In this document: positions 1,350-17,651 of the stretch, piece by piece | Layout of the letters: each line of letters starts with the position of its first letter | How positions within the stretch are numbered: position 1 is the stretch's first letter | Assembly (NCBI GenBank): GCA_902782955.1 | Contig: CACZPD010000168.1 | Span: 1 to 17,651, forward strand | Source of the DNA: an uncultured Erysipelotrichaceae bacterium | GTDB taxonomy: Bacteria; Bacillota_I; Bacilli_A; Erysipelotrichales; Erysipelotrichaceae | DNA length: 17,651 bases | Direction of reading: 5' to 3' | Notes under the pieces: model-generated | Told to the model about the DNA's origin: nothing | Databases searched by the model: none | Seen by the model: only the letters and a program-made list of their open reading frames with translations | Position numbers and translations under genes: made by a program

Positions 1350-1355
1350 TTTACT

Positions 1356-1583: not shown

Positions 1584-1601
1584 GAAACAGAGGAGGACTT
1601 T

Positions 1602-4630: not shown

Positions 4631-4657
4631 TCCTGATGTCAAGACTGTTCTTTTTTT
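4625..4657 (+). terminator. Intrinsic terminator overlapping the aspS stop codon
   Basis: GAATAGTC (4625-4632) pairs with GACTGTTC (4643-4650) as 8 bp with one G-T wobble and a 10-base loop. Seven T residues follow (4651-4657). The 5' arm contains the aspS stop codon TAG (4628-4630). The T tract runs into the promoter of the following RNA gene. Confidence 0.75.
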
Positions 4658-4664
4658 CCGTCAC

Positions 4665-4673
4665 TGATACAAT
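4665..4673 (+). promoter_or_regulatory. Extended -10 promoter of 6S RNA
   Basis: TG (4665-4666), one base, then TACAAT (4668-4673) forms an extended -10 element. A start 7 bases downstream falls at about 4680, exactly where the 5' strand of the RNA closing stem begins. No good -35 is visible; that position lies in the aspS terminator T tract. Confidence 0.65.
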
Positions 4674-4679
4674 GAAATT

Positions 4680-4870
4680 GCCAGAGGACTCAGTATTTTT
4701 CCTACATTTTGATATAAGGGAATCCTGACTGGAGATTCCCGTGTTGAACACCTGGTACGCCCAGGGATCCTGACGGATGACCATGGATACCCACCTCTAC
4801 ATAAGAGGGAACATATCACCCCTCTGGCGGTCATTATAAACAGCCGCTTTGATTCAAAGCGGTTTTGTTT
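4680..4870 (+). ncRNA. ssrS: 6S RNA
   Basis: 6S RNA binds housekeeping RNA polymerase as a mimic of an open promoter. The 310-base gap between aspS and the next gene holds no credible ORF but folds as this family does. The closing stem is GCCAGAGG (4680-4687)/CCTCTGGC (4821-4828). A large central bubble follows, whose 3' side carries a small hairpin CCTCT (4794-4798)/AGAGG (4804-4808). The distal arm starts with GGGAATCC (4718-4725)/GGATACCC (4785-4792), with one mismatch. A promoter ends at 4673 and an intrinsic terminator runs 4844-4870. In Bacillus subtilis, 6S-1 RNA (bsrA) also lies immediately downstream of aspS. The fold and position together make this a strong call. The 3' end of the mature RNA is not defined; it probably lies between about 4830 and the terminator. 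Confidence 0.85.
4844..4870 (+). terminator. Intrinsic terminator of 6S RNA
   Basis: CCGCTTTG (4844-4851) pairs perfectly with CAAAGCGG (4855-4862) around a 3-base ATT loop, followed by TTTTGTTT. Confidence 0.92.
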
Positions 4871-4877
4871 ATTCCGC

Positions 4878-4906
4878 TTGAAAGCAATAATAAAAAACGA
4901 TACAAT
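4878..4906 (+). promoter_or_regulatory. Promoter of the YneF-like gene
   Basis: TTGAAA (4878-4883), a 17-base spacer, and TACAAT (4901-4906) form a good housekeeping promoter about 33 bases before the start codon. It begins 8 bases after the 6S terminator. Confidence 0.8.
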
Positions 4907-4939
4907 AACACTCGTAAAAAAGAAGAGGTGGTATAGGTA

Positions 4940-5155
4940 ATGACACAGTTTTGGTCTACATTGGGCTGGTTTATTTCCGGCGGAATCGTTGGGGCATTGA
5001 TCTGCTTCTTTGTCACAAAGAGATATTTTGAAAAGCAGATCAGGGAAAATCCTCCGGTCAACGAAAAGATGATCCGTGCAATGTTCATGCAGATGGGAAG
5101 AAAACCAAGCGAAGCGCAGATCCGTCAGGTGATGCGGTCGATGAATCAACAGTAA
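4940..5155 (+). CDS. yneF: YneF-family (UPF0154) small membrane protein
   Basis: A 71-residue protein with one N-terminal membrane segment (about residues 7-26). It is followed by the basic stretch TKRYFEKQIRENPPVNEKMI and a C-terminal amphipathic region with MGRKPSEAQIRQVMRSM. This arrangement and length are characteristic of the YneF/UPF0154 family found in Bacilli, Mollicutes and relatives. The molecular role is not established, so none is assigned. AGAGGTGG lies upstream of the ATG at a workable distance. The gene is monocistronic, with its own promoter and a terminator directly after it. Confidence 0.88.
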   Translation: MTQFWSTLGWFISGGIVGALICFFVTKRYFEKQIRENPPVNEKMIRAMFMQMGRKPSEAQIRQVMRSMNQQ

Positions 5156-5167
5156 AACAGATAAGGA

Positions 5168-5193
5168 ACACAATGAAAACATTGTGTTTTTTT
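5168..5193 (+). terminator. Intrinsic terminator after the YneF-like gene
   Basis: ACACAATG (5168-5175), loop AAAA, CATTGTGT (5180-5187), then six T residues to 5193. The stem is perfect and 8 bp long. Confidence 0.93.
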
Positions 5194-5207
5194 CATATTG
5201 CTTGAGA

Positions 5208-5213
5208 TATAAT
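5208..5213 (+). promoter_or_regulatory. -10 element of the nifJ promoter
   Basis: A consensus TATAAT lies 25 bases before the nifJ start codon. The -35 position falls in the T tract of the preceding terminator and no good hexamer is seen at 17 bases. TTGTGT at 5182-5187 would need a 20-base spacer. The ribosome site AGGAGG lies just before ATG 5239. Confidence 0.6.
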
Positions 5214-5238
5214 AATTACAGTAATAATAGGAGGACAT

Positions 5239-8200
5239 ATGAGTACTGAAAACAAAAAAGTTTTCGAAGCGATGGATGGTAATACCGCGACAGCTCACAG
5301 TGCGTATGCGTTCACTGAAGTTGCCGGAATCTATCCGATCACGCCATCTTCTCCGATGGCCGAGAATACAGACGCATGGGCTACTGAAGGCCGTGTAAAT
5401 GTATTCGGAGACAAAGTTAAAGTTGTGGAAATGCAGTCCGAAGGCGGCGCTTCCGGTACGATCCACGGCGCTCTGCAGGGCGGTGCGCTGGCTGCGACGT
5501 ATACAGCATCACAGGGTCTGCTGCTGATGATTCCAAATATCTACAAGCTGAAGGGCGAACTTCTGCCGGGCGTTATCCATGTTGCGGCACGTTCCCTTGC
5601 AACACATACTCTGAGTATTTTCGGTGATCATCAGGATGTTTATGCATGCCGTCAGACAGGCGCTGTCATGATGTGCTCTCACTCCGTTCAGGACTGTATG
5701 GATCTTGCGGGTGCTGCACACCTCGTTGCAATTGACGCATCTGTTCCGGTCATTCATTTCTTTGACGGTTTCCGTACATCCCACGAAGTCGACAAGATCG
5801 AAGTCATGGATTACGGTTTCCTCAAATCCTTACTGCCGATGGACAAAGTCCAGGCTTTCCGTGACAAGGCTCTCAACCCGCATGGAAACGCGATCACACG
5901 CGGCGGCTCCCAGAATGATGACATCTATTTCCAGGCTGCTGAAGCACAGAACGAACACTACGCTGCAGTTCCGGATATCGCTGCCAAATACTACAAGGCA
6001 ATCAGCGAGCATACAGGCCGTGACTATGCACCGTTCGTATACTACGGCGCACCGGATGCTGAACGCATTATCATCGCCATGGGTTCTGTCACAGACACGA
6101 TCACAGAAACGATCGACGCACTGACAGCACAGGGCGAAAAAGTAGGTCTCATCAAGGTCTACCTGTATCGTCCGTTCTCCCAGGCTTATCTGGAAAAAGT
6201 TCTGCCGGCTTCCGTCAAGAAAGTTGCAGTTCTCGACCGTTCCAAGGAACAGGGCACAAGAGAACCTCTGTATCTCGATGTCTGCTATGCACTGAGAAAG
6301 CATAAAGACCTCACAATTATCGGCGGCCGTTACGGTCTGTCTTCAAAGGATACAAACCCGTCCCATATCAACGGTGTATTCGAAGAACTGAAGAAAGACG
6401 ATCCGAAAGAAGAATTCACGATCGGTATCGAAGACGATGTTACAAATCTGTCTCTGCCGGCAGTTGATGTCAAGATCGACGCGGATTATACATCCTGCCT
6501 GTTCTACGGTCTCGGTTCCGACGGAACAGTCGGTGCAAACAAGAGCACCGTCAAGATCATCGGCAACAACACCGATCTCTACTCCCAGGCTTACTTCGCA
6601 TATGATTCCAAGAAGGCCGGCGGCGTTACACGTTCTCACCTGAGATTCGGCAAGAGCCCGATCCATTCCCCGTACTATATCAACAAAGCAGACTTCATTT
6701 CATGCTCATTGGATTCCTACTGCTTCAAGTATGATATGGTCAAAGACCTCAAGGAAGGCGGAACATTCCTGCTGAATACGACTTTCTCCGCTGACAGCAT
6801 CGCTGACCATCTGCCGAACAAGATGCTCGCAGAACTGGCTAAGAAGAAAGCAAAATTCTATATCATCAACGCTACACAGATCGCCCTGGATACACACATG
6901 GGCCGTCATACAAACACGATCCTGCAGAGTGCATTCTTCAAGCTGAATGAACAGATCATGCCGTATGAGAAGTCCCTCGAACTCATGAAGGATTCCGCAC
7001 GTCATACATATGCACGCAAGGGTGAAGATGTTGTAAACAACAACTGCAACGCAATCGACCGCGGTGCAAGCGGACTGGTTGAAGTTGAAGTCAAGCCGGA
7101 ATGGGCTGACCTGCAGTACGGCGATTCCCTGTTCAAGAAGACAGGCGACGCTTACTATGACAACAACCTGCAGAGAATCAACGCTCTGGAAGGCTATGAC
7201 ATGCCTGTATCCAGCTTCCTGAAGTACGGCGTTCTCGACGGATCCATTCCGGAGAATGTTGCATTCAAGGAGAAGAGAACGATCGCTACACAGGTTCCGA
7301 CATGGGATGCTTCCAAGTGTGTTGCCTGCGGCCAGTGCGCATTCGCATGTCCGCATGCTACGATCCGTCCGTTCCTTCTGAACGCTGACGAAGTTGCTAA
7401 GGCTCAGGAAATCGCTGATGCCAACAATGTCGAACTGACATTCGTAGACGACAAGAAGCTCGCTGCTTATCCGGGCGCTGCAACTGCAGGTCTGAAGTAC
7501 AGAATCCAGCTGTCACCGGCTAACTGCGTAGGCTGCGGTGTCTGTCTGAAAGTTTGTCCGACAAAGGCTCTCGGTGTTGCAGAAGTCAACGATATGCTCC
7601 AGGAAGAGCCGCTGGCAGATTATCTGTACAAAGAGACAGAATACAAGCCGCAGTACGGAAGAGAAGGAACAGTCCAGGGATCCTCTCTGCTGATGCCTTA
7701 CTTCGAAGTAAGCGGATGCTGCCCGGGCTGCGGAGAAGCTCCGTATTACAGACTGGCATCCCAGATGTTCGGTAAGGACATGATGATTGCCAACGCTACA
7801 GGCTGCTCCATGATCTACTGTTCCTCCACACCGTCCACACCGTTCGTAACAGACGGGGACAATGATGGTGTCGCATGGGCGAACTCACTGTTTGAAGACA
7901 ACGCTGAATTCGGTTATGGTATGGCAATTGCCCAGACATACAAGGCTGCCAAGATCCTCAAGATCATGGAAGACAACATGGATGCAGTTGAACCTGAACT
8001 GAAAGAAGCATTTGAAGCATACATCGCTGCCAAGGATGACCGCAACGCACAGCGCGGCATCAAGGCTAAGATCCTCGCAGGCGTCAAAGCCAGCGCAAAT
8101 GAAGCAGTCAAGGAACTGTTAAGCTACGAACGTGACCTCGTCGGCAAGTCCGTATGGATCGTCGGCGGTGACGGATGGGCATATGATATCGGCTACGGCG

Positions 8201-8790
8201 GACTCGATCATGTCATGGCCAACAACCTGAACGTCAACGTTCTCGTACTCGATACCGAAGTATATTCCAACACCGGCGGTCAGTCCTCCAAGTCTTCTCA
8301 GGCAGCTTCCATCGCGAAGTTCGCAGCCGGCGGAAAACCGCTCGCAAAGAAAGACCTCGGTCAGATCGTTATGGAATACGGTCACTGCTATGTCGCTTCC
8401 GTATCCATGGGCGCGAACCAGCTCCAGACCATCAAGGCATTCAAGGAAGCTGAAAGCTATGACGGACCTTCCATCATCATCGCTTACTGCCCATGTGCAG
8501 AACAGGGTATCAAGGGCGGTCTCGTCAATGCTCCGAAGATCATGAAGAACGCTGTTGAATGCGGCTACGTTACACTGTACCGTTATGATCCGCGCAACGA
8601 AAAACCGCTCACGATCGATTCCAAGGAACCGCAGTGGGATAAATTCCATGACTTCCTGATGAATGAAGCTCGTTACTTCAACCTGCCGAAGATCCGCGGT
8701 GCTGAAGCAGCTGAAAAACTGTTTGCGAAGACACTCAGCGACGCGCAGACACGTTACAACAAGCTGAAGAACAAAGCTGAACATCAGTAA
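5239..8790 (+). CDS. nifJ: Pyruvate:ferredoxin (flavodoxin) oxidoreductase, single-chain
   Basis: This cytoplasmic enzyme oxidises pyruvate with CoA to acetyl-CoA and CO2, reducing ferredoxin or flavodoxin; it is central to anaerobic fermentation. The 1183 residues match the fused homodimeric type. The N-terminal pyruvate/thiamine domain carries YPITPSSPMAE from residue 32. A double-cluster ferredoxin domain has Cys694, 697, 700, 704 and Cys763, 766, 769, 773. The proximal cluster ligands are Cys828, Cys831, Cys856 and probably Cys1086, with spacing like that of the Desulfovibrio africanus enzyme. The thiamine diphosphate motif starts GDG at 977-979 and runs to NTGG at 1011-1014. All key residues are present. 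AGGAGG precedes the ATG. Codon use is visibly narrower than in neighbours (for example ggc/ggt glycine and gct/gca alanine), which suggests high expression. It has its own promoter and terminator. Confidence 0.98.
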   Translation: MSTENKKVFEAMDGNTATAHSAYAFTEVAGIYPITPSSPMAENTDAWATEGRVNVFGDKVKVVEMQSEGGASGTIHGALQGGALAATYTASQGLLLMIPNIYKLKGELLPGVIHVAARSLATHTLSIFGDHQDVYACRQTGAVMMCSHSVQDCMDLAGAAHLVAIDASVPVIHFFDGFRTSHEVDKIEVMDYGFLKSLLPMDKVQAFRDKALNPHGNAITRGGSQNDDIYFQAAEAQNEHYAAVPDIAAKYYKAISEHTGRDYAPFVYYGAPDAERIIIAMGSVTDTITETIDALTAQGEKVGLIKVYLYRPFSQAYLEKVLPASVKKVAVLDRSKEQGTREPLYLDVCYALRKHKDLTIIGGRYGLSSKDTNPSHINGVFEELKKDDPKEEFTIGIEDDVTNLSLPAVDVKIDADYTSCLFYGLGSDGTVGANKSTVKIIGNNTDLYSQAYFAYDSKKAGGVTRSHLRFGKSPIHSPYYINKADFISCSLDSYCFKYDMVKDLKEGGTFLLNTTFSADSIADHLPNKMLAELAKKKAKFYIINATQIALDTHMGRHTNTILQSAFFKLNEQIMPYEKSLELMKDSARHTYARKGEDVVNNNCNAIDRGASGLVEVEVKPEWADLQYGDSLFKKTGDAYYDNNLQRINALEGYDMPVSSFLKYGVLDGSIPENVAFKEKRTIATQVPTWDASKCVACGQCAFACPHATIRPFLLNADEVAKAQEIADANNVELTFVDDKKLAAYPGAATAGLKYRIQLSPANCVGCGVCLKVCPTKALGVAEVNDMLQEEPLADYLYKETEYKPQYGREGTVQGSSLLMPYFEVSGCCPGCGEAPYYRLASQMFGKDMMIANATGCSMIYCSSTPSTPFVTDGDNDGVAWANSLFEDNAEFGYGMAIAQTYKAAKILKIMEDNMDAVEPELKEAFEAYIAAKDDRNAQRGIKAKILAGVKASANEAVKELLSYERDLVGKSVWIVGGDGWAYDIGYGGLDHVMANNLNVNVLVLDTEVYSNTGGQSSKSSQAASIAKFAAGGKPLAKKDLGQIVMEYGHCYVASVSMGANQLQTIKAFKEAESYDGPSIIIAYCPCAEQGIKGGLVNAPKIMKNAVECGYVTLYRYDPRNEKPLTIDSKEPQWDKFHDFLMNEARYFNLPKIRGAEAAEKLFAKTLSDAQTRYNKLKNKAEHQ

Positions 8791-8799
8791 TATCCATTG

Positions 8800-8827
8800 A
8801 AGGTAAGCCCCGTGCTTACCTTTTTTT
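8800..8827 (+). terminator. Intrinsic terminator of nifJ
   Basis: GGTAAGC (8802-8808) pairs with GCTTACC (8814-8820) around CCCGT, followed by seven T residues (8821-8827). Flanking A residues at 8800-8801 can extend the stem. Confidence 0.95.
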
Positions 8828-8831
8828 ATGT

Positions 8832-8847
8832 TTCAGTGTATACTGAA
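8832..8847 (+). promoter_or_regulatory. Palindrome overlapping the -10 of the first GNAT gene (candidate operator)
   Basis: TTCAGT (8832-8837) and ACTGAA (8842-8847) form an inverted repeat with a 4-base spacer. The -10-like TATACT (8839-8844) lies across its centre and right arm. A poor -35 (TTACCT, 8816-8821) sits 17 bases upstream inside the nifJ terminator. The same nine bases TTCAGTGTA recur at 9462-9470 across the -10 of the DJ-1 gene, but without the second arm. Confidence 0.4.
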
Positions 8848-8851
8848 ATGC

Positions 8852-9421
8852 ATGATACGGATGATAGAGGAAAATGATATCTTTGCGTGCTGGTGGTGGT
8901 ATAACTGGTACATAACACATTCCTACGCGACATTTGAGACGGAACCGGTTTCCAGCAGAGAATTCACGGAAAGGGTCCATGCGGTCAGGGAAAAGTATCC
9001 GTGGATCGTTCTCGAAGAGGACGGCGTCCCGGTCGGATATGCCTATCTTTCTTCTTTTAATGTAAAAGCGGCATACCGCTGGACATGTGATCTGGCAATC
9101 TACCTTGCGCCGGATAAACTCGGGCAGGGTTACGGCTCGCAGCTGATGAAAGCGATCCTGGACCTGGCTGAAAAAGACGGCTATTACAATATGGTCTCAC
9201 TCATTACATGCGGAAATACGGAGAGCGAGCGTCTGCATGAAAAGTTCGGCTTCGAGAAGACGGGTGTCATTGAGTCTGCAGGAATTAAAAACGGTCAGAA
9301 TCTGTCAGTCGCTTTCTATCAGAAAACGATCCGGAAATTTGAAGGCGGGGAGATCCCCGCAGAGCCGGTGAACCTGGATCCGTATAAAGAACAGAAAAAA
9401 GGAAGGGTACCGCTGTTTTAG
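8852..9421 (+). CDS. GNAT N-acetyltransferase, phosphinothricin acetyltransferase-like
   Basis: A cytoplasmic acetyl-CoA-dependent N-acetyltransferase of the COG1247 (Pat/MnaT-like) type. The N-terminal block with YITHSYATFETEPVS, the VGYAYLSSF and AYRWTCDLAIYL strands, motif A with GQGYGSQL (about residues 91-98) and HEKFGFEKTGV are typical of the family. Members acetylate compounds such as phosphinothricin or methionine sulfone/sulfoximine; the substrate here is unknown. The ATG at 8852 gives the family-typical MIR start and 189 residues. The upstream in-frame ATG at 8828 lies immediately after the nifJ terminator and before the probable -10, so it should not be transcribed. No ribosome site precedes 8852, and the predicted transcript start falls on or next to that ATG. 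The last 28 or so residues, rich in Pro, Glu and Lys, are a tail beyond the GNAT fold. Confidence 0.88.
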   Translation: MIRMIEENDIFACWWWYNWYITHSYATFETEPVSSREFTERVHAVREKYPWIVLEEDGVPVGYAYLSSFNVKAAYRWTCDLAIYLAPDKLGQGYGSQLMKAILDLAEKDGYYNMVSLITCGNTESERLHEKFGFEKTGVIESAGIKNGQNLSVAFYQKTIRKFEGGEIPAEPVNLDPYKEQKKGRVPLF

Positions 9422-9423
9422 GA

Positions 9424-9455
9424 AGATTGTCACAGGGATGTGATAATCTTTTTTT
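9424..9455 (+). terminator. Intrinsic terminator of the first GNAT gene
   Basis: AGATTGTCAC (9424-9433) pairs with GTGATAATCT (9440-9449), 10 bp with one G-T wobble and a 6-base loop, followed by T residues to 9455. Confidence 0.93.
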
Positions 9456-9468
9456 AGGGAATTCAGTG

Positions 9469-9474
9469 TACAAT
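9469..9474 (+). promoter_or_regulatory. -10 element for the DJ-1/GNAT operon
   Basis: TACAAT (9469-9474) lies 27 bases before the start codon. The expected -35 position falls in the preceding terminator and shows no good match. The element overlaps a TTCAGTGTA sequence shared with the promoter at 8832. Confidence 0.5.
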
Positions 9475-9501
9475 AGATAACAGGAAATCAGGAGGGTGCA
9501 T

Positions 9502-10098
9502 ATGACTGAAAAAAAGGCTGCCGTACTGCTGGCAGAAGGATTTGAGGAAATCGAAGCGCTGACCGTTGTGGATGTGCTGAGAAGGGCAGACATCATCTGC
9601 GATATGATCGCACTCGGAAATAAAACAGTTACCGGTTCACACGGCATCTCTGTAATTGCTGATCTCTGCATGGATGAAGCGGACAGAAATACATATGACA
9701 TGGTCATCCTGCCGGGCGGACAGCCGGGTTCCACACATCTGCGTGATTCGGAACAGGTCATTGCCTGGATCCGCGCATTTGACGCGCAGGATGACAAATA
9801 TGTCGCGGCCATCTGTGCAGCGCCGATGGCTGTTGCGGAAAGCGGCATCGCGGCAGGAAGAAAAGTGACTTCCTTCCCGCAGGATTTCCTGCGTGAACTG
9901 CTCAAGGACGCCGAGTATATCGATGACAATGAGCAGCTTGAGGAGATGGTGGCTGTCGACAGGAATCTGATCACGAGCCGGGGACCTGCCACAGCGCTTC
10001 CGTTTGCTTTCCGTTTAGTGGAGATACTGGGCAAAGACAGTACGCCGCTGCGTCAGGGAATGCAGTTTGATGCTTTGAAGGAAGTTATGAAAAAATGA
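9502..10098 (+). CDS. DJ-1/PfpI family protein (YajL/ThiJ-like)
   Basis: A cytoplasmic 198-residue protein of the DJ-1 branch, close in size and layout to E. coli YajL and human DJ-1. The N-terminal motif GFEEIE places Glu18 exactly where DJ-1 has Glu18. The nucleophile-elbow cysteine is Cys105 in AAICAAP, and SRGPATALPFAF near the C-terminus is also typical. Members have been reported as redox sensors, chaperones or deglycase/glyoxalase enzymes; the role is debated and I assign none. ATG 9502 is the start because AGGAGG (9490-9495) lies 6 bases upstream; the in-frame GTG at 9496 abuts that site and is rejected. Its stop overlaps the next start (ATGA, 10095-10098), so it heads a coupled three-gene unit with two GNAT acetyltransferases. 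Confidence 0.92.
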   Translation: MTEKKAAVLLAEGFEEIEALTVVDVLRRADIICDMIALGNKTVTGSHGISVIADLCMDEADRNTYDMVILPGGQPGSTHLRDSEQVIAWIRAFDAQDDKYVAAICAAPMAVAESGIAAGRKVTSFPQDFLRELLKDAEYIDDNEQLEEMVAVDRNLITSRGPATALPFAFRLVEILGKDSTPLRQGMQFDALKEVMKK

Positions 10099-10532
10099 AG
10101 ACTTCCTTCTTCAGACTGAATGAACTCAGCCCGGAAAAGCTGCTGGATATCCTGAAGCTTCGTCAGGATGTGTTCATCGTTGAACAGGAATGCATCTATC
10201 CGGACATCGATGAGACCGACAGATATGCTGTACATGCTGTTCTGGAAGAAGGAGGACAGGTCATTGCCTGTCTCAGGATCTTCCGCCGGGCAGGTGAAGA
10301 AAATACGGCGCAGATCGGACGTGTCGTTTCCGCTGTGCGCAGAAAGGGATACGGCACGGAAATACTGAAAGCTGCCCTGGAATACGCAAAAGATATCATG
10401 CACTGCAGAGAAGCATATTTGGAAGCGCAGTGCTACGCATCCGGCCTGTATGAAAAACAGGGTTTTCATATTGTCTCGGAGCCTTTTCTGGAAGACGGAA
10501 TACCGCATGTCCGTATGAGGAGGCATCTGTGA
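10095..10532 (+). CDS. elaA: ElaA-family GNAT acetyltransferase
   Basis: A 145-residue cytoplasmic acetyl-CoA-dependent acetyltransferase of unknown substrate. The N-terminal block LRQDVFIVEQECIYPDIDE (from residue 22) is the hallmark of the ElaA subgroup. Motif A follows as IGRVVSAVRRKGYGTEIL, with RRKGYG at about residues 82-87, and the C-terminus has SGLYEKQGFHIVSEPFLEDGIPHVRM. The start ATG overlaps the DJ-1 stop by ATGA. The stop overlaps the following GTG start (GTGA, 10529-10532), so translation of all three is probably coupled. Confidence 0.9.
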   Translation: MKTSFFRLNELSPEKLLDILKLRQDVFIVEQECIYPDIDETDRYAVHAVLEEGGQVIACLRIFRRAGEENTAQIGRVVSAVRRKGYGTEILKAALEYAKDIMHCREAYLEAQCYASGLYEKQGFHIVSEPFLEDGIPHVRMRRHL

Positions 10533-10999
10533 GAGAGGGAATGATACGGAAAGCTGAAGAGAAAGATCTCGCCCGGATCGCGGAGATCCTCGTTTTTAAC
10601 AACCGTCTTTTTTTCTACCCGATATTCCGGGATGAAGAATATTCTTTCAGCATTATGAATGTGGAATCCCTGATGAAGGAATACCGCGGGGATCCCGGGA
10701 TAATGGATGAGACATACGTTTATGATGACGGTCTGATCCGGGGCGTCCTGCGCTTTGACGGTGCTGAGATCATCAAGCTGTATGTCGATCCTTTCTTCCA
10801 GAACCGGGGGATCGGTCAGAAACTCCTTGCGTTTGCGCTGGAAGGAAAGGAAAAGGTATTTCTCTGGGCTCTCGAGAAAAACGAAGCAGGGCGCCGTTTT
10901 TACCGCAGAAACGGATTCAGGGAAACGGGAGAAAAAAAGTTTGAAGAAGGAACGGAAGAATATCTCATCCGTATGGAATACGTAAAACCGGATGTCTGA
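10529..10999 (+). CDS. GNAT N-acetyltransferase
   Basis: A 156-residue GNAT protein. Motif A is visible as IKLYVDPFFQNRGIGQKLL (QNRGIG at about residues 91-96), followed by WALEKNEAGRRFYRRNGFRETGE, the usual acceptor-side helix and strand. The substrate is unknown; a protein N-terminus or small-molecule amine are both possible. GTG 10529 is chosen because GAGGAGG (10517-10523) lies 5 bases upstream and the start overlaps the previous stop. ATG 10541 gives a more typical MIRKAEEKD N-terminus, but the purine-rich run before it (10531-10540) leaves no spacer. Either start is possible. The stop codon TGA (10997-10999) lies inside the extended -10 of the next gene's promoter. Confidence 0.85.
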   Translation: MREGMIRKAEEKDLARIAEILVFNNRLFFYPIFRDEEYSFSIMNVESLMKEYRGDPGIMDETYVYDDGLIRGVLRFDGAEIIKLYVDPFFQNRGIGQKLLAFALEGKEKVFLWALEKNEAGRRFYRRNGFRETGEKKFEEGTEEYLIRMEYVKPDV

Positions 11000-11005
11000 T
11001 ATAAT
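10997..11005 (+). promoter_or_regulatory. Extended -10 promoter of the CorA-like gene
   Basis: TG (10997-10998), one base, then a consensus TATAAT (11000-11005). No -35 match is seen. The TG is part of the preceding gene's stop codon, so the promoter starts within the end of that gene. The start codon at 11029 is 23 bases downstream. Confidence 0.65.
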
Positions 11006-11028
11006 AGTTCAGAAAGCAGGTGAATCAT

Positions 11029-11949
11029 ATGCCATATTACCTCATCCACGAAAGACTGGATGAATGCTGCAGGGAAGACGTCCATGGGGCGGATGCACAG
11101 TTCGTTGCAGTCCTGACACACGCGGAATTTGCCGAAGTCAGGGAATTATTTGACAAGAAAATCGATATCGAAATGGATCTGAAACATATCCATGAGACAA
11201 AGGCCGTCGTGAATATCAATTCTCTGACAGGTACATTTAATATTCCGGATCACGAAAACTACTCAGGGCATAAATTCAAGATCGCCTTTGTAATGGATGA
11301 AAAGGGAATCGTTTTTATTGATGACAGTGATTATACGCATCAGATCATGGAACGGATACATGATACCAAGAAATGGAAGCTGCCTTCCCTGGAAAGACTT
11401 ATCTATGATTTCCTTGAGGAAACGATCCGGCACGATATCTCGCTTCTGGAAAAAACAGAACAGGATCTGGATATCATGGAACGCTCGATCATGAAAGGCG
11501 AGATCGAACAGTATCCGATCCAGCTGAACGATATCCGCAGCGATCTGCTCGACATGCATATGCATTATGAACATCTGCTGGATGTTGCAAAGGAATTCGA
11601 AGAAAATGAAAATGATTTTTTCGATGATAACAATGTGCGTTATTTCCGTCTGTTTCAGGAAAGAGTCACGCGTCTGGAAGATAATGTCGATAATTTACGC
11701 GATTTGATCGTCCAGCTTCGGGACCTTGTTTCCGAACAGCTCAGCATCAAGCAGAACAACATCATGACGCTTCTGACTGTCATAACAACGATCTTTATGC
11801 CGCTTACGCTGATTGCCGGCTGGTACGGCATGAACTTTGTCAATATGCCGGAATTGTATATGGCATGGGGCTATCCTATTGTGATTATTGTCAGTCTCAT
11901 GATCGTCGTCTGCTGTCTGGTCTTCTTCAAAAAGAAGAAATGGATGTGA
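11029..11949 (+). CDS. corA: CorA-family magnesium/divalent cation transporter
   Basis: An inner-membrane pentameric channel of the CorA family, which carries Mg2+ and in some members other divalent metals. The 306-residue protein has a large soluble N-terminal region rich in charged helices (about residues 120-235, coiled-coil-like). Two C-terminal membrane segments follow: one ending in the signature YGMN (266-269), and one in the last 25 or so residues, ending with a basic KKKKWM tail. The loop after GMN reads FVNMPELYMAWGY, with glutamate in the MPEL position usual for the family. ATG 11029 follows AGGTG (11018-11022) by 6 bases; the in-frame GTG at 11020 is part of that ribosome site and is rejected. 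Metal specificity cannot be read from the sequence. Confidence 0.93.
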   Translation: MPYYLIHERLDECCREDVHGADAQFVAVLTHAEFAEVRELFDKKIDIEMDLKHIHETKAVVNINSLTGTFNIPDHENYSGHKFKIAFVMDEKGIVFIDDSDYTHQIMERIHDTKKWKLPSLERLIYDFLEETIRHDISLLEKTEQDLDIMERSIMKGEIEQYPIQLNDIRSDLLDMHMHYEHLLDVAKEFEENENDFFDDNNVRYFRLFQERVTRLEDNVDNLRDLIVQLRDLVSEQLSIKQNNIMTLLTVITTIFMPLTLIAGWYGMNFVNMPELYMAWGYPIVIIVSLMIVVCCLVFFKKKKWM

Positions 11950-11959
11950 GGATTTATAA

Positions 11960-12898
11960 ATGAAAAGAGTTTTGGTAATATTCCTGACAATTCTCTTTTT
12001 TCTGAGCGGCTGCCGGGCGGATGTACAGACCGGAAATGAGGTCAGTGCTGCCGGGCAGAGTTTTTCGTCCGCCGACATGGTGGCTTTTAAATGCCGGTTT
12101 GTTTCGGAAGACAACTATACCGGAGAAGAAGGTATCGGTTCGGCAGAATACTATTTCGAACTGAAAGTACTGGATGACGGCAGGATCGAAGGGAAAGCGC
12201 AGAGAAACGCTTACGATGAAGATCCGTCATACGACCTGGTCTTTGCCTCTGACAGGCAGACGCTTTCAGCGCTTCAGGAACTTACGGAAGAGATCAAACT
12301 GAAGGATCTGGACGGCATCAGCCATCTTGAGAATGACGCCCCGGAAGGAAAAGGCATATCGCTCAGGATACGATACGCTTCCGCAAAGATCGTCAGCTGT
12401 GAAGACAATACCAAAAACCATCTTTCACTCCGGCAGATGCTTGCGATCCGTGACTGGTTTGAACAGATATCCGGTGCCGGACGTATCCGCCGCTATCCGG
12501 TGGAAGAAATCCCGTCTGAAACATTTGTGGAAGAGACCGGTCTGGATCCGGATCTCTCATCCGTGACCAATAAAGATGTTGTTTTCACCAGGATCAGGGA
12601 AAACCGTACAGTCATCTATAAAACTGCTTTTGCCACATATGAGGGCAATGCCTATGAACTGTATTTTTCCGCGGATACGGATGCTCTTTCCCCGGAGAAT
12701 ACAGAATGGGAAAATATATATTCGTTTGATGATTTTAAAGTCAGCCTGAACAGCCGGGGGCAGGGACTCTGTGAGTGGAAAACAGATGCGTATGCTTATG
12801 CGCTGTATATGCCGGAAAACGCGGAAGAAGGCTTTCTGGAATATATGCGGCTTGCGCTGAAAGGCATTCTCTGGAATCCGCCCGGCAGCGGGGCATAG
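11960..12898 (+). CDS. Unrecognised lipoprotein
   Basis: I do not recognise this family. The 312-residue product starts with a lipoprotein signal peptide: MKR, a hydrophobic core, and the lipobox LSGC with the lipidated cysteine at residue 18. It should therefore be anchored on the outer face of the cell membrane. The mature part looks like two globular halves. One (about residues 38-165) contains YYFELKVLDDGRIEGKAQ and QMLAIRDWFEQI; the other (about 195-300) contains YKTAFATYEGNAYELYF and YAYALYMPENAEEGFLEYM. It is acidic and has no further membrane segments. The start has GTGAGGA about 8 bases upstream and lies 10 bases after the CorA-like stop, so the two genes are probably co-transcribed. 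A link to metal uptake is only suggested by that pairing. Confidence 0.8.
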   Translation: MKRVLVIFLTILFFLSGCRADVQTGNEVSAAGQSFSSADMVAFKCRFVSEDNYTGEEGIGSAEYYFELKVLDDGRIEGKAQRNAYDEDPSYDLVFASDRQTLSALQELTEEIKLKDLDGISHLENDAPEGKGISLRIRYASAKIVSCEDNTKNHLSLRQMLAIRDWFEQISGAGRIRRYPVEEIPSETFVEETGLDPDLSSVTNKDVVFTRIRENRTVIYKTAFATYEGNAYELYFSADTDALSPENTEWENIYSFDDFKVSLNSRGQGLCEWKTDAYAYALYMPENAEEGFLEYMRLALKGILWNPPGSGA

Positions 12899-12911
12899 AC
12901 ATGCGCCGGGA

Positions 12912-12939
12912 TTGACAAATATACGGTTTGAATTATGAT
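12912..12939 (+). promoter_or_regulatory. Promoter of the ECF transporter operon
   Basis: A perfect -35 TTGACA (12912-12917) is followed after 16 bases by TATGAT (12934-12939). The alternative TGATAA two bases further on would give an 18-base spacer. It lies directly after the lipoprotein gene and drives a leader of about 90 bases. Confidence 0.85.
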
Positions 12940-12944
12940 AATTT

Positions 12945-13009
12945 CGTATGAGTAAGCCGTAAAACCGTTCTGTGAACAGGGGATTATTTTACAGAATTGT
13001 CATACGGCT
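12945..13009 (+). promoter_or_regulatory. Structured 5' leader with two mutually exclusive helices (candidate regulatory RNA)
   Basis: AGCCGTA (12955-12961) can pair with TACGGCT (13003-13009), enclosing a second helix TTCTGT (12968-12973)/ACAGAA (12991-12996). CGTATGA (12945-12951) can instead pair with TCATACG (13000-13006), which shares TACG with the first helix, so the two cannot coexist. There is no T tract, so any control would more likely act on translation. The ribosome site AAGGGGG (13026-13032) lies 17 bases after the last helix. I could not match the leader to purine, preQ1, FMN, TPP, SAM, THF, fluoride or T-box consensus elements by eye. Confidence 0.45.
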
Positions 13010-13039
13010 CAGATATATTATCGATAAGGGGGTAATAAT

Positions 13040-13600
13040 ATGAATTCACAGTCTTCTACCAAAACGATCGTAGCGACAGGTCTCGGTGCGGCAGTATTTC
13101 TGGTTCTTTTCATGTATGTGAAAGTTCCTTCTCCGGTACCGGAAACGAATCTGCAGATCGCTTACGGTGTTTCCAGTTTCTTTGCGGCAGTATTCGGACC
13201 TGTCGCAGGCTTCCTTGTGGCTTTTGTCGGCCATGCGCTTTCTGATTTCATCCAGTACGGTTCTCCATGGTGGAGCTGGGTAGTGGCTTCCGGTGCCGGA
13301 GCGCTCATTACCGGTCTCTGCGCGAAGAAAGTCGCTCCTGCCGTAGAAGAAGGCAGATTCAATACACCTGAACTGATCAGTTTCGTGATCTGGGCAGTCA
13401 TCGCAAACGCTGTTGCCTGGCTGGTCGCAGCGCCTGTTCTGGATATCGTTATGTATTCCGAACCGGCATCGACTTCTTTCCTGCAGGGTGTAACCGCATT
13501 TGGTCTGGATTCCATCGTATCCTGTGTGATCGGTGCGATCCTGCTCAAAGCGTACGCTTCCACAAAAACAGGAAAAGGCAGTCTTTCCAAAGATATCTGA
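13040..13600 (+). CDS. ECF transporter S component, UPF0397 family
   Basis: The membrane substrate-binding subunit of an energy-coupling-factor transporter. The 186-residue protein is hydrophobic with about five or six membrane segments (near residues 10-28, 45-64, 78-95, 112-132 and 150-172). The N-terminal TKTIVATGLGAAVF holds the AxxxA-like small-residue face that S components use to contact the T subunit. The block GHALSDFIQYGSPWWSW (64-80) is typical of UPF0397. Databases often label the family as riboflavin-type, but the substrate is not established as far as I know. The start has AAGGGGG 7 bases upstream. The gene is followed by an intrinsic terminator and then its ATPase and T genes, so it may be made in excess over them. 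SAM hydrolase genes further downstream hint at an adenosyl- or methionine-related substrate; that is inference. Confidence 0.88.
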   Translation: MNSQSSTKTIVATGLGAAVFLVLFMYVKVPSPVPETNLQIAYGVSSFFAAVFGPVAGFLVAFVGHALSDFIQYGSPWWSWVVASGAGALITGLCAKKVAPAVEEGRFNTPELISFVIWAVIANAVAWLVAAPVLDIVMYSEPASTSFLQGVTAFGLDSIVSCVIGAILLKAYASTKTGKGSLSKDI

Positions 13601-13616
13601 TAAACCAATCATGAAC

Positions 13617-13651
13617 GGGAAAGCACGATGACTGCTTTCCCTTGTTTTTTT
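13617..13651 (+). terminator. Intrinsic terminator between the S-component and ATPase genes
   Basis: GGGAAAGCA (13617-13625) pairs with TGCTTTCCC (13633-13641) around a 7-base loop, followed by TTG and seven T residues to 13651. The hairpin is strong and lies inside what must otherwise be one operon, because no new promoter is evident in the 16 bases before the ATPase start. Confidence 0.88.
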
Positions 13652-13666
13652 CTTGAAAGGAATTCT

Positions 13667-15376
13667 ATGAAAGAACCCATAATCACCTTCACTGATTTTT
13701 CTTTTCAGTATTTTGAACAAAGTGAACCGACGCTCCATCATATCGATCTGACGATCCGGCGCGGGGAAAAAATACTGATAGCGGGACCATCCGGATCCGG
13801 AAAAAGTACACTCGGCAACTGTATCAACGGCCTGATCCCTTTTGCGCATAAGGGAAAGATCACCGGTTCTTTGAATGTGGACGGAATCGAAACAAAGAAA
13901 TCCAGTCTGTTTGAACTGTCCATGAAAGTCGGGACCGTGCTGCAGGACAGCGACGGGCAGTTTATCGGTCTGAGTGTCGGTGAGGACATCGCATTCGCGC
14001 TGGAAAATGACCTCGTTCCCCAGAAAGAGATGAAGGAACGGGTAAAAAGGATAGCTGCGATCGTTGGAATGAGTGAGCAGACTGATCATAATCCGCATAA
14101 TCTCAGCGGCGGACAGAAGCAGCGCGTTTCACTGGCAGGCGTAATGGTCGATGATGTCGACATCCTGCTGTTTGACGAACCGCTGGCCAACCTGGATCCC
14201 AGGACCGGAAAAGTTGCGATCGAACTTATTGATGATATCGCAAAGGAAGACAAAACAGTCATTATTATTGAACATCGCCTGGAAGACGTTCTGCACAGAC
14301 CGGTCGACAGGATCATCCTGATGAACGACGGGAAGATCATCGCGGACGGGACTCCGGATGAGGTGCTCGCGTCCGGTATTCTGCGGGATTACGGTATCCG
14401 GGAACCGCTTTATCTGACAGCCGCGAGATATGCCGGAAGTGAAATTACAGCGGATCTGCATCCTGCATCCCTGGAAACTTTCGATGTTTCCGGAATCAGA
14501 CATGATCTGCAGAAATGGTATGACGATCATTACAAACGCGTACCGCAGCCGCAGAAAAAGGAGATGCTGAAGATCGAAGATATCTCTTTTTCCTATTCAG
14601 GTGTCAAACCGACGCTGAATCATATCAAGGCAGTCATACATGAAGGGGAGATGCTGAGCATCGTCGGAAAGAACGGCGCCGGCAAGACAACACTTTCCTC
14701 CGTGATCTGCGGATTCATCAAACCTGATGAAGGAACGATCACCATGTACGGAGAGGATCTTTCCCGGTATTCGATCTCCGAAAGGGCGGAGTATGTCGGC
14801 ATCGTCATGCAGAATCCGAATCAGATGATCTCCAAGACGATGATCTATGACGAGGTCGCGCTTGGACTGACGATCCGGAAACTGCCTGAGGAAGAGATCA
14901 GGCAGAAAGTATATGATGTCCTGAAGATCTGCGGTCTCTATGAGTTCCGCAACTGGCCGATCAGCGCACTGAGCTTCGGACAGAAGAAAAGGGTTACCAT
15001 AGCTTCTATCCTCGTGCTGAATCCCAAGGTGCTGATACTGGATGAACCGACAGCCGGGCAGGATTATCACCATTATTCTGAGATCATGGAGTTTCTGAAG
15101 AAACTGAATGAGAACGGGCAGACGATCATCCTGATCACCCATGACATGCACCTGATGCTGGAATATACGGAAAGAGCTGTCGTTATTTCCGACGCGGAAA
15201 AACTGGCTGATCAGAAAGCCTTTGAAGTACTCTGTGACCCGGTCCTGACGGAGAAAGCGAATCTTAAGGAAACATCGCTGTTTGAACTGGCACAGAAGGC
15301 CGGGATCGGGGATCCTCTCGGATTTGTCGAGTGCTTTATCCATTATGACCGGGAGGTGCGTGCCCATGAAAATTAG
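13667..15376 (+). CDS. ECF transporter ATPase with two fused ABC domains (YkoD-like, EcfA1-EcfA2)
   Basis: The cytoplasmic energising subunit of the ECF transporter; it hydrolyses ATP to drive substrate release from the S component. The 569-residue chain carries two complete ABC domains. Domain 1 has Walker A GPSGSGKST (40-48), signature LSGGQ (146-150), Walker B ILLFDEP (166-172) and H-loop His203. Domain 2 has Walker A GKNGAGKTT (334-342), signature LSFGQ (435-439), Walker B VLILDEP (455-461) and H-loop His492. The second signature departs from LSGGQ, which also occurs in other ECF ATPases, and may make the two sites unequal. ATG 13667 is the start because GAAAGG (13655-13660) lies 6 bases upstream; an earlier in-frame ATG at 13628 lies inside the terminator hairpin. 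Its end overlaps the EcfT start by 11 bases. Confidence 0.95.
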   Translation: MKEPIITFTDFSFQYFEQSEPTLHHIDLTIRRGEKILIAGPSGSGKSTLGNCINGLIPFAHKGKITGSLNVDGIETKKSSLFELSMKVGTVLQDSDGQFIGLSVGEDIAFALENDLVPQKEMKERVKRIAAIVGMSEQTDHNPHNLSGGQKQRVSLAGVMVDDVDILLFDEPLANLDPRTGKVAIELIDDIAKEDKTVIIIEHRLEDVLHRPVDRIILMNDGKIIADGTPDEVLASGILRDYGIREPLYLTAARYAGSEITADLHPASLETFDVSGIRHDLQKWYDDHYKRVPQPQKKEMLKIEDISFSYSGVKPTLNHIKAVIHEGEMLSIVGKNGAGKTTLSSVICGFIKPDEGTITMYGEDLSRYSISERAEYVGIVMQNPNQMISKTMIYDEVALGLTIRKLPEEEIRQKVYDVLKICGLYEFRNWPISALSFGQKKRVTIASILVLNPKVLILDEPTAGQDYHHYSEIMEFLKKLNENGQTIILITHDMHLMLEYTERAVVISDAEKLADQKAFEVLCDPVLTEKANLKETSLFELAQKAGIGDPLGFVECFIHYDREVRAHEN

Positions 15377-16199
15377 AACATTCTCATATGATCAGCTGGA
15401 TACATTTGTCCACCGTCTTTCGGGATTATCCAAACTTGTATGTTTCCTGCTTCTGACGACAGCGATCATGCTGACATACGATATCCGGATCATACTGGCC
15501 ATCATGGTCTTGTCCTATGTCATGATGATGATCTCGAAGATCAGGTATTCACAGATCAGGCTTATGGTGATCTATGTATTCGCGTTCCTGGCATTCAATT
15601 TTATCCTGACATATGTATTCGCACCGGAATACGGCGTGAAGATCTACGGCACACGGCATCAGCTGTTTACGTTCGGCGGACCCTATACGGTCACGCTTGA
15701 GCAGTTATTCTACCAGGTCACAAAGTTTTCCAAATATCTCTCCGTCATCCCGCTGGGCATTATCTTTATCCTGACCACCAATCCGAGCGAATTCGCGTCT
15801 GCTCTGAACGGCATCGGCATCAGTTACAAGATCTGTACATCCCTGTCACTGACCCTGAGGTATTTTCCCGATGTGGCTGATGACTATAATTCGATCTCGC
15901 TGGCCCAGCAGGCACGCGGACTGGAAATGAGCAAAAAAGCAAAGATGATCGACCGTCTGAAACGGATCGGCGGCATCCTTATCCCGCTGATCATGACGAC
16001 GATGGACAGGATCGAGATCATATCCAACGCAATGGATCTGAGAGGGTTCGGAAAGCATAAGAAAAGAACGTGGTATGCCGCGAAGCCGCTGAAGAGGAAT
16101 GATTATATCTCCATGGCAGTATGTCTGGCTGTCCTGATCATTTCCCTGTATATCCGCTTTGCCGTAAATCACAGTATTTACTACAACCCGTTTCAGTGA
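15366..16199 (+). CDS. ecfT: ECF transporter transmembrane (T) component
   Basis: The membrane scaffold that links the ATPase to the S component. The 277-residue protein has several hydrophobic segments (near residues 22-38, 40-57, 66-85, 124-138 and 246-264) and the cytoplasmic coupling region with two Xaa-Arg-Gly motifs, ARG at 183-185 in AQQARGLEM and LRG at 225-227 in AMDLRGFG. These arginines normally dock into the two ABC domains. ATG 15366 is preceded by GGGAGGTG (15351-15358), and the gene overlaps the ATPase stop by 11 bases. An earlier in-frame start at 15282 would lie well inside the ATPase gene. The next gene starts 14 bases after its stop, so the SAM hydrolases are almost certainly co-transcribed with it. 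Confidence 0.94.
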   Translation: MKIRTFSYDQLDTFVHRLSGLSKLVCFLLLTTAIMLTYDIRIILAIMVLSYVMMMISKIRYSQIRLMVIYVFAFLAFNFILTYVFAPEYGVKIYGTRHQLFTFGGPYTVTLEQLFYQVTKFSKYLSVIPLGIIFILTTNPSEFASALNGIGISYKICTSLSLTLRYFPDVADDYNSISLAQQARGLEMSKKAKMIDRLKRIGGILIPLIMTTMDRIEIISNAMDLRGFGKHKKRTWYAAKPLKRNDYISMAVCLAVLIISLYIRFAVNHSIYYNPFQ

Positions 16200-16213
16200 G
16201 GAGGTATCCATAT

Positions 16214-17071
16214 ATGAATGAATCAATACTTCCGATTCTGGTTTTCCAGACGGATTTTACATATCTTGAAGGGGCTGTCGCAGCCATGTACGGCGTGGTC
16301 AGAAGTGTCGACCGGAATGTCGAGATCATCACGGCGACACATGATCTTCCGCAGTATGATATCTGGAGCGCTTCCTATCGTCTGCGTCAGTACATGCCGT
16401 TCTGGCCTGCCGGTACTGTATTTGTTTCCGTTGTCGACCCCGGTGTCGGGACAGCGCGCAGAGCCTGTGCGGCCCGTACCAAAGACGGATATTATATCGT
16501 CACCCCTGATAACGGGACCCTGACGCATGTCGCAGCCCGGCATGGAATCGAAGAGATCAGGGAAATCGACGAGACTGTCAACCGTCTCCCGTCAACACGC
16601 GGCACCAGTGTTTTCCACGGACGTGACCTGTTCGGCTACTGCGCCGCAAAACTGGCTTCCGGAAAGATCACATTTGAGGAAGTCGGTCCGGCATATTCAC
16701 CGGATGATATCGTGCGACTGCCGGTGCATTCCTTTGAACGCAGGGGAAATGCAGTGGAAGGCATTCTGGAGATCGATGACCCGAACTTCGGAAATCTATG
16801 GACCAATATTCCGGTCGGAGAACTGCATAAAGCAGGACTTTCCTTTGGCGATACGGTCATAGTCACGATCTGGAAGGATGGGGAAGAGATCTTCCGTAAG
16901 CCTGTCCGGTTTGATCAGACATTCGGAAACGTACAGAAGGGGGATGTGATCCTTTACAACAACGAGCTCATGAATGCGTCGCTCGCTGTTTCCCAGGGAA
17001 GTTTTAAAGAGAGTTACTGCCCGGGCTACGGACCGGAGTACCATATCTCCATTTCCGGGGAGGACGCGTGA
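16214..17071 (+). CDS. S-adenosylmethionine hydrolase (DUF62, SAM hydroxide adenosyltransferase), copy 1
   Basis: Characterised members split S-adenosylmethionine with water into adenosine and methionine. The 285-residue length fits this hydrolase group. The Asp-Arg-His triad known from the Pyrococcus enzyme is intact: Asp75 and Arg82 in VDPGVGTARR, and His135 in FHGRD. TPDNGTLTH and the C-terminal-domain motif DDPNFGNLWTNI are also present. The N-terminal motif, normally TDFGLxDG, here reads TDFTYLEG (residues 13-20): the first Asp is kept, but Gly-Leu and the second Asp are replaced (Asp by Glu19). The start ATG has AGGAGG (16199-16204) 9 bases upstream. The stop overlaps the next start as TGATG. 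I saw no long insertion of the kind that marks fluorinases. Activity on S-adenosylmethionine is probable, not shown. Confidence 0.92.
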   Translation: MNESILPILVFQTDFTYLEGAVAAMYGVVRSVDRNVEIITATHDLPQYDIWSASYRLRQYMPFWPAGTVFVSVVDPGVGTARRACAARTKDGYYIVTPDNGTLTHVAARHGIEEIREIDETVNRLPSTRGTSVFHGRDLFGYCAAKLASGKITFEEVGPAYSPDDIVRLPVHSFERRGNAVEGILEIDDPNFGNLWTNIPVGELHKAGLSFGDTVIVTIWKDGEEIFRKPVRFDQTFGNVQKGDVILYNNELMNASLAVSQGSFKESYCPGYGPEYHISISGEDA

Positions 17072-17651
17072 TGAACCGTCTGCTTGTATTTCAGACTGAT
17101 TTCGGATTGTCTGACGGTGCTGTTGCGGCGATGTACGGCGTTGCTTTATCAGTGGATGAGGACCTGAAGATCTTCAATCTCACACATGATATACCGCCGT
17201 TTGATACCTTTGAAGCTTCCTACCGTCTGTTTCAGGCAGTTCCATACTGGCCGCAGAATACGGTCTTTGTGACCGTTGTGGATCCGGGTGTGGGCAGTTC
17301 CCGGCGCAGTATCGTAGCCAGGACAAAACTAGGCCAGTATATCGTTACCCCGGATAACGGTTCCCTTTCCCATATCGCAAGGGCAGTCGGGATCGAATCC
17401 GCCCGTGTGATCAGGGAAGAGGTCGGCCGCAGGAAGAACAGCGAAAACTCCTATACGTTCCACGGCAGGGATATCTTCGCGTATACCGGCGCGCTGCTGG
17501 CATCCGGTAAGATCACCTATGATGATATCGGGGAGGAGATCGATCCTGAGGAACTGGTCATGATGAAGGGCATGTATCCTGTCATCAGTGAAACAAGCAT
17601 CCTCGGAACGATCGAAACCCTGGATGTACGATTTGGCTCCTTATGGACCAA
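17071..17651 (+). CDS. S-adenosylmethionine hydrolase (DUF62), copy 2, 5' part (cut by window end)
   Basis: A second paralogue starting at ATG 17071, which overlaps the previous stop (TGATG) and has GGGGAGG (17057-17063) upstream. About 193 residues are visible with no stop; by comparison with copy 1, about 90 residues lie beyond the window. It has the canonical N-terminal motif TDFGLSDG (residues 9-16) and the full triad: Asp71 and Arg78 in VDPGVGSSRR, His131 in FHGRD. TPDNGSLSH is present, and the final visible residues are RFGSLWT. Roughly half of the aligned N-terminal residues match copy 1 by eye, so the pair is an old duplication, not a recent one. The family forms trimers with active sites between subunits, so the two products could form mixed trimers; that is inference. 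Confidence 0.92.
   Translation, partial: MNRLLVFQTDFGLSDGAVAAMYGVALSVDEDLKIFNLTHDIPPFDTFEASYRLFQAVPYWPQNTVFVTVVDPGVGSSRRSIVARTKLGQYIVTPDNGSLSHIARAVGIESARVIREEVGRRKNSENSYTFHGRDIFAYTGALLASGKITYDDIGEEIDPEELVMMKGMYPVISETSILGTIETLDVRFGSLWT

Follow-up and report, generated by a model that had tools for sequence, protein, structure and literature searches.

The stretch analysed here, referred to as the window, comprises positions 1 to 17,651 (17,651 nts) of contig CACZPD010000168.1 from an uncultured Erysipelotrichaceae bacterium (assembly GCA_902782955.1). Toward its end, one strand encodes the S component of an energy-coupling factor (ECF) transporter, a double ATPase, the transmembrane component EcfT and two copies of DUF62, the family of S-adenosylmethionine (SAM) hydroxide adenosyltransferases, in the following order:

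13040..13600, + strand: S component, PF07155 / NF010182 (UPF0397), 186 aa, S-component fold (Pfam, NCBIfam, AlphaFold2, Foldseek)
13667..15376, + strand: double ATPase, two ATP-binding cassette (ABC) domains plus DUF3744, in an open reading frame (ORF) open from 13628 (ORF, Pfam)
15366..16199, + strand: EcfT transmembrane component, CbiQ family, 277 aa (Pfam)
16214..17071, + strand: copy 1 of DUF62 (SAM hydroxide adenosyltransferase), a clade H1 member with an intact D-R-H triad
17071..17651, + strand: 5′ part of DUF62 copy 2, cut by the window end, clade H2 motif DVRFGSLWT

The ATPase and EcfT genes overlap by 11 bases, a 14-base gap separates EcfT from DUF62 copy 1, and the two DUF62 copies meet in a TGATG, so that the ORFs bear out the one-strand arrangement described in the initial annotation. 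Its wording of a transporter "fused" to hydrolases does not hold, as the five genes are unfused, with the appearance of a single operon. The domain matches are well over the Pfam cut-offs: PF07155 for the S component (1.1e-45, 156 bits), PF00005 in two stretches plus DUF3744 for the ATPase, CbiQ for EcfT (7.7e-29; below the NCBIfam cut-off for the cobalt equivalog TIGR02454), SAM_HAT_N (3.7e-47) and SAM_HAT_C (2.9e-14) for DUF62 copy 1, and SAM_HAT_N (9.3e-51) for copy 2, the remainder of which lies outside the window. For the ATPase, the in-frame ATG at 13667, which stands behind AAAGGAA, is a likelier start than position 13628. The closest relative among the best 80 of the 316 stretches described below is L001, from an Erysipelotrichaceae metagenome-assembled genome, whose S protein is 98% identical; it holds the same five genes, with a complete DUF62 copy 2 of 283 aa.

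The AlphaFold2 model of the window S protein has a confident S-component fold (predicted local distance difference test score, pLDDT, 93.1), and its first 25 Foldseek hits are all S components (best E 2.9e-4). The matches include, among others, S components for biotin, riboflavin, folate, thiamin and pantothenate, none of them clearly nearest, and the transporter is predicted to serve the uptake of a micronutrient. Of 66 S proteins compared in a tree, which like the other trees was built by a quick method, 45 group with the window S (type 1); the other 21 make up a second PF07155 clade (type 2, support 100), which carries a GGWxxWDW-like motif. With S denoting the S component, A the double ATPase, T EcfT and H, H1 or H2 DUF62, type 2 loci are laid out as H2-S-A-T-H, as S-A-T-H-H, or with an M20 peptidase gene between T and H.

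To follow the S gene across genomes, contigs in GTDB were scanned with an S alignment, which gave 316 confirmed stretches; the best 80 were taken with 8-kb flanks and represent 79 distinct contigs, as L034 and L035 share one. Many of the loci come from metagenome bins; one cultured carrier is Pseudobutyrivibrio ruminis DSM 9787 (L013). The homologue listing covers the best 120 of 8000 candidates scored. DUF62 lies within the flanks of 68 of the 80 S loci, or 67 of the 79 contigs (46/54 in Bacillota, 17/21 in Chloroflexota and 4/4 in Spirochaetota). The initial annotation had considered that absence of DUF62 from the neighbourhood in related genomes would speak against a shared pathway; the adjacency is present. 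Eight of the 12 contigs without DUF62 stop at most 1.3 kb downstream of S (L003, L009, L010, L023, L026, L053, L055 and L079). S has no ATPase, EcfT or DUF62 beside it in L025 and L027, and the genome of L027 (G011) carries three DUF62 genes on a separate stretch. The usual gene order is S-A-T-H1(-H2), with the rearranged orders A-T-H1-S in L073, L074, L075, L077, L078 and L080 and H2-A-T-H1-S in L037.

The class of G013 (Floccifex porci, the genome that contains L032), which we take to be Bacilli, was surveyed in 247 genomes: 19 are over the NF010182 cut-off, 15 hold DUF62 and 12 hold both, in all 12 cases on one contig. The Fisher p value of this co-occurrence, 2.6e-13, is too small since related genomes are treated as independent. 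In the order of G242, DUF62 is found in 46 of 148 genomes; loci were taken for 40 of them, the others (G011, G013, G014, G015, G019 and G039) having been sampled before, and L150, L160 and L166 are repeats of L030, L033 and L021. ECF genes adjoin DUF62 in 35 of these 40 loci and an S gene does so in 33, while the stretches of L139, L143, L148, L162 and L172 hold DUF62 and no ECF genes. The linkage between S and DUF62 is old.

The D-R-H triad that marks DUF62 hydrolases (excerpt of PMC10491745) is invariant, as D75, R82 and H135, in 14 aligned DUF62 sequences that include both window copies. In the fluorinase FlA, Ser269 contacts the methionine carboxylate, Asp210 the methionine amine and Asn215 the adenine (excerpt of PMC1282579). 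The SalL columns taken as these three positions by motif spacing, with FlA itself outside the alignment, were read in 187 DUF62 proteins of at least 230 aa, a set that counts three repeated loci twice and from which the cut copy 2 of the window was dropped with other shorter sequences. The ends of the 1rqp stretch set the Glu of DUF62 copy 1 opposite residue 269. One class, H1 (84 rows), has Glu for the presumed Ser269 (the Ser of SalL NSRG) and keeps Asn215; the other, H2 (70 rows), keeps Ser269 and has Ser for the presumed Asn215 (the Asn of SalL FGN). The remaining rows, 33 of the 187, bear neither signature. The presumed FlA-like methionine- and adenine-holding residues are changed in the window copies, with Glu for Ser269 in copy 1 and Ser for Asn215 in copy 2.

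In a tree of 115 DUF62 rows, in which the few signature columns were retained, each class falls on one side of a branch (support 95 for H1, 99 for H2 and 99 for the others), and on these sequences H1 and H2 are two old clades. The residue changes at the presumed FlA contacts bear on specificity for SAM and not on membership of the family. The D and H of the triad are kept in 81/84 H1 and 61/70 H2 rows; therefore most of these proteins are hydrolase-like and not halogenase-like. DUF62 copy 1 scores under both NCBIfam (R)-SAM hydrolase equivalog cut-offs (122.7 of 350 and 87.7 of 470 bits). The commonest DUF62 make-up is H1-H2, in 49 of 107 loci with the window and repeats counted. DUF62 proteins form trimers with the active site at the interface of adjacent subunits (excerpt of PMC12120602), and mixed H1/H2 trimers are therefore conceivable. 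Further copy numbers and arrangements were seen in single loci: six divergent tandem DUF62 genes stand behind one ECF set, under a SAM-I riboswitch, in L164 (7639-12383), and five behind one ECF set in L168 (7788-11623). The stand-alone DUF62 proteins of L139, L143, L148 and L162, in stretches without ECF genes, have Asp for the triad His of FHGRD (FDGRD), and L172 carries a lone H2-type DUF62 (7857-8741) between genes that resemble thiI and ffh by eye.

The leaders of some relatives point to methionine and SAM. Rfam places a T-box directly before S in L095/L151, L097/L138, L157 and L177, a SAM-I riboswitch in L164, L176 and L174, and a purine riboswitch in L094/L152, whose C at the specificity position presumably indicates the guanine class. 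The T-box specifier was read by eye at the column that shows GAC in the hisS-aspS T-box of the window; it is AUG in all four S-leading T-boxes and, as a check, in the metG T-box of L032. An AUG T-box arrangement was also recognised by pattern and by eye in L158, under the Rfam threshold. Among type 2 loci, 7 of 21 have a leader (four T-boxes, two SAM-I and one purine riboswitch; L141 was scanned as the shorter L098), and a methionine T-box or SAM-I riboswitch is found by Rfam in seven relatives, six of type 2 and one of type 1. No Rfam leader precedes S in seven UPF0397 genes without DUF62 (L081-L085, L087 and L088), and leader pattern scans in 79 of the best 80 loci gave no convincing match. 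H1 and H2 of the SAM-I-led L176 nest in type 1 proteins, together with L159 and the type 1 locus L076 (support 89 for H1 and 100 for H2), and H2 of the SAM-I-led L164 joins this group (support 82). One enzyme set therefore appears to serve both S types, and the link to methionine may be carried to the S type of the window through these common H1 and H2 enzymes. A lysine riboswitch just downstream of H2 in L177 (7040-7186, − strand) presumably serves the next gene.

From the operon anatomy, the conserved linkage, the two clades with distinct pocket residues and the methionine or SAM leaders of some relatives, we infer a putative substrate, a direction of transport, a reaction, a division between H1 and H2 and, for the window copy, a link to methionine or SAM. 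The ECF importer and the two DUF62 hydrolases would work together as a single unit that salvages an S-adenosyl sulfonium compound, a proposal whose chances we place slightly above even. The substrate would be SAM from outside the cell, most likely with the unusable (R,S) epimer among the forms taken up, or a compound closely derived from SAM. Outside the cell it would bind to the S component, and the double ATPase with EcfT would power its uptake. H1 and H2 would then split the 5′-carbon-sulfur bond with water, giving methionine (or the methylthio part) and adenosine; MetK could remake SAM from the released methionine, and the adenosine would enter purine pools. H1 and H2 would probably divide two substrate forms or make mixed trimers.

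The argument for an imported substrate runs through regulation. SAM-I riboswitches normally turn genes off when SAM is plentiful. An operon under their control is on at low SAM and therefore should not destroy native SAM, which sharpens the earlier objection that SAM hydrolysis would be wasteful; with native SAM spared, DUF62 most likely acts on an imported S-adenosyl sulfonium, e.g., (R,S)-SAM. A methionine product fits the T-box and SAM-I leaders, an adenosine product fits the purine riboswitch, and the existence of an H1/H2 pair would make sense if the substrates were two epimers or if a derivative were cleaved besides SAM. The suggestion of the initial annotation that an adenosyl or methionine-related compound is imported and cleaved inside the cell gains support from the linkage, kept through changes of gene order and across three phyla, and from these leaders. 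We propose more tentatively, at somewhat less than even chances, that this is a widespread pathway, in which extracellular SAM, including the spontaneously formed (R,S) epimer, is imported by a dedicated ECF transporter and cleaved by specialised old DUF62 paralogues. The specialisation of the paralogues within this pathway, for two sulfonium epimers or for SAM plus a relative and partly under methionine, SAM or purine control, is put forward just as tentatively.

Several observations weigh against such a salvage unit. By Rfam, the window operon has no recognised leader, nor do 14 of the 21 type 2 loci; among the ~27 type 1 DUF62-linked loci scanned (the window, three batches of relatives (9; 8 of 10; 7), L086 and L089), only L174 has one, a SAM-I riboswitch. 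H1 and H2 have each altered one presumed SAM-holding residue, so that plain SAM is maybe the substrate of neither. A metK survey, as the initial annotation had proposed, scored the gene above its cut-off in 34 of the 40 genomes with S/DUF62 loci, and imported SAM is thus not essential there. Near the operon, metK occurs in only 4 of 119 loci and an NlpA/MetQ gene in only 5 (L052, L145, L163, L174 and L176), the background rate being unmeasured for both. An M20 peptidase-family gene inside some operons, described below, suggests an amide-bearing substrate or methionine peptides. DUF62 is missing from the S-A-T loci L043 and L045 and from 7 of the 19 genomes with the S family in the 247-genome set. 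Finally, the sole significant PDB sequence match of the window S protein is RibU 3p5n (E 3.3e-5, weak), and lumazine synthase was found in 5 of 45 genomes (44 with DUF62 loci plus G022, which has an S locus without DUF62), the 40 without it needing riboflavin from outside.

These last two points would suit a riboflavin transporter with DUF62 as an incidental neighbour, as would the riboflavin name carried by NF010182 and PF07155, the first of which the window S matches at 202 bits against a cut-off of 99, and the presence of TmRibU among the five Foldseek matches with E under 0.001. The conserved linkage to DUF62 is not that of an incidental neighbour, however, and the leaders found before S are those for methionine, SAM or purine. 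The best fold match of the window S protein is a biotin S component, with a template modelling score (TM) of 0.67 against 0.61-0.63 for TmRibU, a difference that is not decisive. FMN (flavin mononucleotide) riboswitches occur in 40 of the 45 genomes, and none stands directly before a UPF0397 S gene in the loci scanned by Rfam, window included. In 20 of the 30 FMN loci examined, the riboswitch precedes another S family, recognised by a profile for which six of the 20 downstream genes served as input; the profile of the window S found none of the frames downstream of the riboswitch in the 30 loci at E 10. Pfam assigns the two FMN-led S genes compared with it to PF12822, for which the window S is below cut-off (23.9 of 30.7 bits), and of ten FMN-led genes compared with NCBIfam none is over a cut-off, nine giving weak S-component matches and one none. 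The identity of these genes as RibU comes from the FMN riboswitch, PF12822 in two of them and the home-made profile. In L145, an FMN riboswitch with an S-like gene adjoins the ECF-DUF62 operon. Because FMN riboswitches lead other genes and none leads UPF0397 in the loci scanned, the riboflavin name is probably wrong for this S family, in line with the doubt already raised about that label, and a riboflavin transporter is very improbable here.

A less remote, though still unlikely, explanation is that the transporter imports methionine or a precursor and that DUF62 separately clears spontaneously formed (R,S)-SAM inside the cell, the two being neighbours since both yield methionine. The methionine T-box and SAM-I leaders suit any methionine supply, UPF0397 operons without DUF62 occur, StDUF62 prefers (R,S)-SAM (excerpt of PMC12120602), and one genome label reads "Methionine-regulated ECF transporter MtsA" (excerpt of PMC5408102). 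The linkage of S and DUF62, in contrast, outlasts rearrangement in three phyla, MetNIQ-type importers are already near some operons, and many loci have between two and six divergent DUF62 copies, which seems beyond the need for damage repair. The substrate could also be another S-adenosyl or nucleoside sulfonium, such as decarboxylated SAM, deaminated (inosyl) SAM or an N-acylated derivative, for which H1 and H2 would each be specialised. The clade-wide loss of the presumed carboxylate-binding Ser in H1 and of the presumed adenine-binding Asn in H2, the M20 peptidase-family protein and the purine riboswitch in L152 would agree with this. The roles given to these residues, however, are those of their fluorinase counterparts, matched only through alignment and motif spacing, and we know of no established nutrient among decarboxylated, inosyl or N-acylated sulfoniums of the SAM type; this substrate class is considered improbable.

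If the salvage of extracellular SAM is correct, many DUF62 enzymes would have the cleavage of imported SAM as their role in the cell. The reason for cellular SAM hydrolysis, and with it the role of known DUF62 enzymes, is stated as an open question in an excerpt of PMC12120602. An importer accompanies DUF62 in three phyla, and SAM-I control of some operons would turn the enzymes on at low SAM; the puzzle of SAM hydrolysis thereby becomes the testable idea that the enzymes act on an imported compound. UPF0397 would gain a function, S-adenosyl sulfoniums would be added to the substrates of ECF transporters, and the duplicated DUF62 copies would have a job. Our literature search found no paper joining DUF62 or SAM hydroxide adenosyltransferase with ECF transporters and none on UPF0397, and an earlier mention is possible.

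Neighbouring genes of methionine metabolism were seen in a few loci. metK stands just before S in L036 (TIGR01034), just after H2 in L169, where it has its own SAM-I riboswitch ahead of it, and ~5 kb from the operon in L017 and L018. The MetN-MetI-MetQ sets near L145, L163, L174 and L176 lie behind T-boxes with an AUG specifier. The M20 peptidase-family gene (~445 aa; Pfam on three) is inside the operon in 8 of 119 loci (L157, L158, L159, L163, L165, L171, L175 and L176), all of type 2 where S is present in the stretch, which it is not in L159. Extra genes recurring in type 1 loci were considered as a clue to function and proved uninformative: there is only a GNAT-like gene in five loci (L048, L038, L061, L062 and L065), placed after H1, and between H1 and H2 where both are present (Pfam: L048 only). 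That the system exists because its carriers are methionine auxotrophs was also considered, and the genomes do not show it. A MetE-type domain occurs in 7 of the 45 genomes, and several frames of ~800 aa resemble MetH; the B12-binding domain search, which is not specific to MetH, matched 40 of the 45 at E 0.001 and 36 over cut-off. In L034/L035 (JALEVB010000047.1) and G014:C106, the operon is present as two inverted copies on a single 19 kb contig, which is likely to be an artefact of assembly.

Three further elements accompany the S gene of the window:

12912..12939, + strand: promoter-like site TTGACA-16-TATGAT, 11/12, upstream of S (consensus match only)
12955..13010, + strand: S leader hairpin AGCCGTA...TACGGCT, inner TTCTGT/ACAGAA (fold z -2.84)
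13617..13651, + strand: intrinsic-terminator-like hairpin (13617-13641) then a T run, between S and ATPase (terminator scan)

Promoter-like sites number 10 in the stretch against 5.7 expected from shuffles, and terminator-like sites 4 against 3.6. The hairpin at 12955..13010 matches no Rfam family at gathering score. A smaller GCCGT/ACGGC pairing is seen by eye in the L001 leader, and beyond it nothing convincing was found by eye that would make a conserved leader RNA in the clade of the window. Among 59 relatives with the ATPase closely after S, 35 have a hairpin with a T run at this place, including L001, L002, L005-L009 and L011-L018, as judged by a simple folding rule with no shuffle control. 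Because of this terminator-like hairpin, S is perhaps produced in excess, and an excess of S over ATPase may be a design feature. The sole Rfam match in the window is the T-box of hisS (1356-1564), which precedes hisS-aspS and has the specifier GAC (Asp), overlapped by CAC (His).

Of the known systems, those ECF transporters that have their own double ATPase resemble that of the window in the S fold and in having S, a duplicated ATPase and EcfT in one operon; the window differs by the addition of two hydrolase-family genes and, in some relatives, by methionine or SAM leaders. ECF-RibU shares the S-component fold and the database label with the window S, whereas two FMN-led S genes are PF12822 and the window S falls under that cut-off. 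We take MtsB and MtsC to be the names of the partners of MtsA. The likeness to the "Methionine-regulated ECF transporter" MtsABC is methionine regulation, by annotation label only (MtsA, excerpt of PMC5408102). The DUF62 hydrolases StDUF62, PH0463 and 2zbu are like the window copies in both domains and in the D-R-H triad, and differ in that window copy 1 is below the NCBIfam hydrolase cut-offs and in the two clades with changed SAM-contact positions. The SalL chlorinase and FlA fluorinase have fold and family in common with the window DUF62 proteins; in contrast to two aligned chlorinase-type chains (Tyr), DUF62 copy 1 has the D and H of the triad, and copy 2 has the same D and H.

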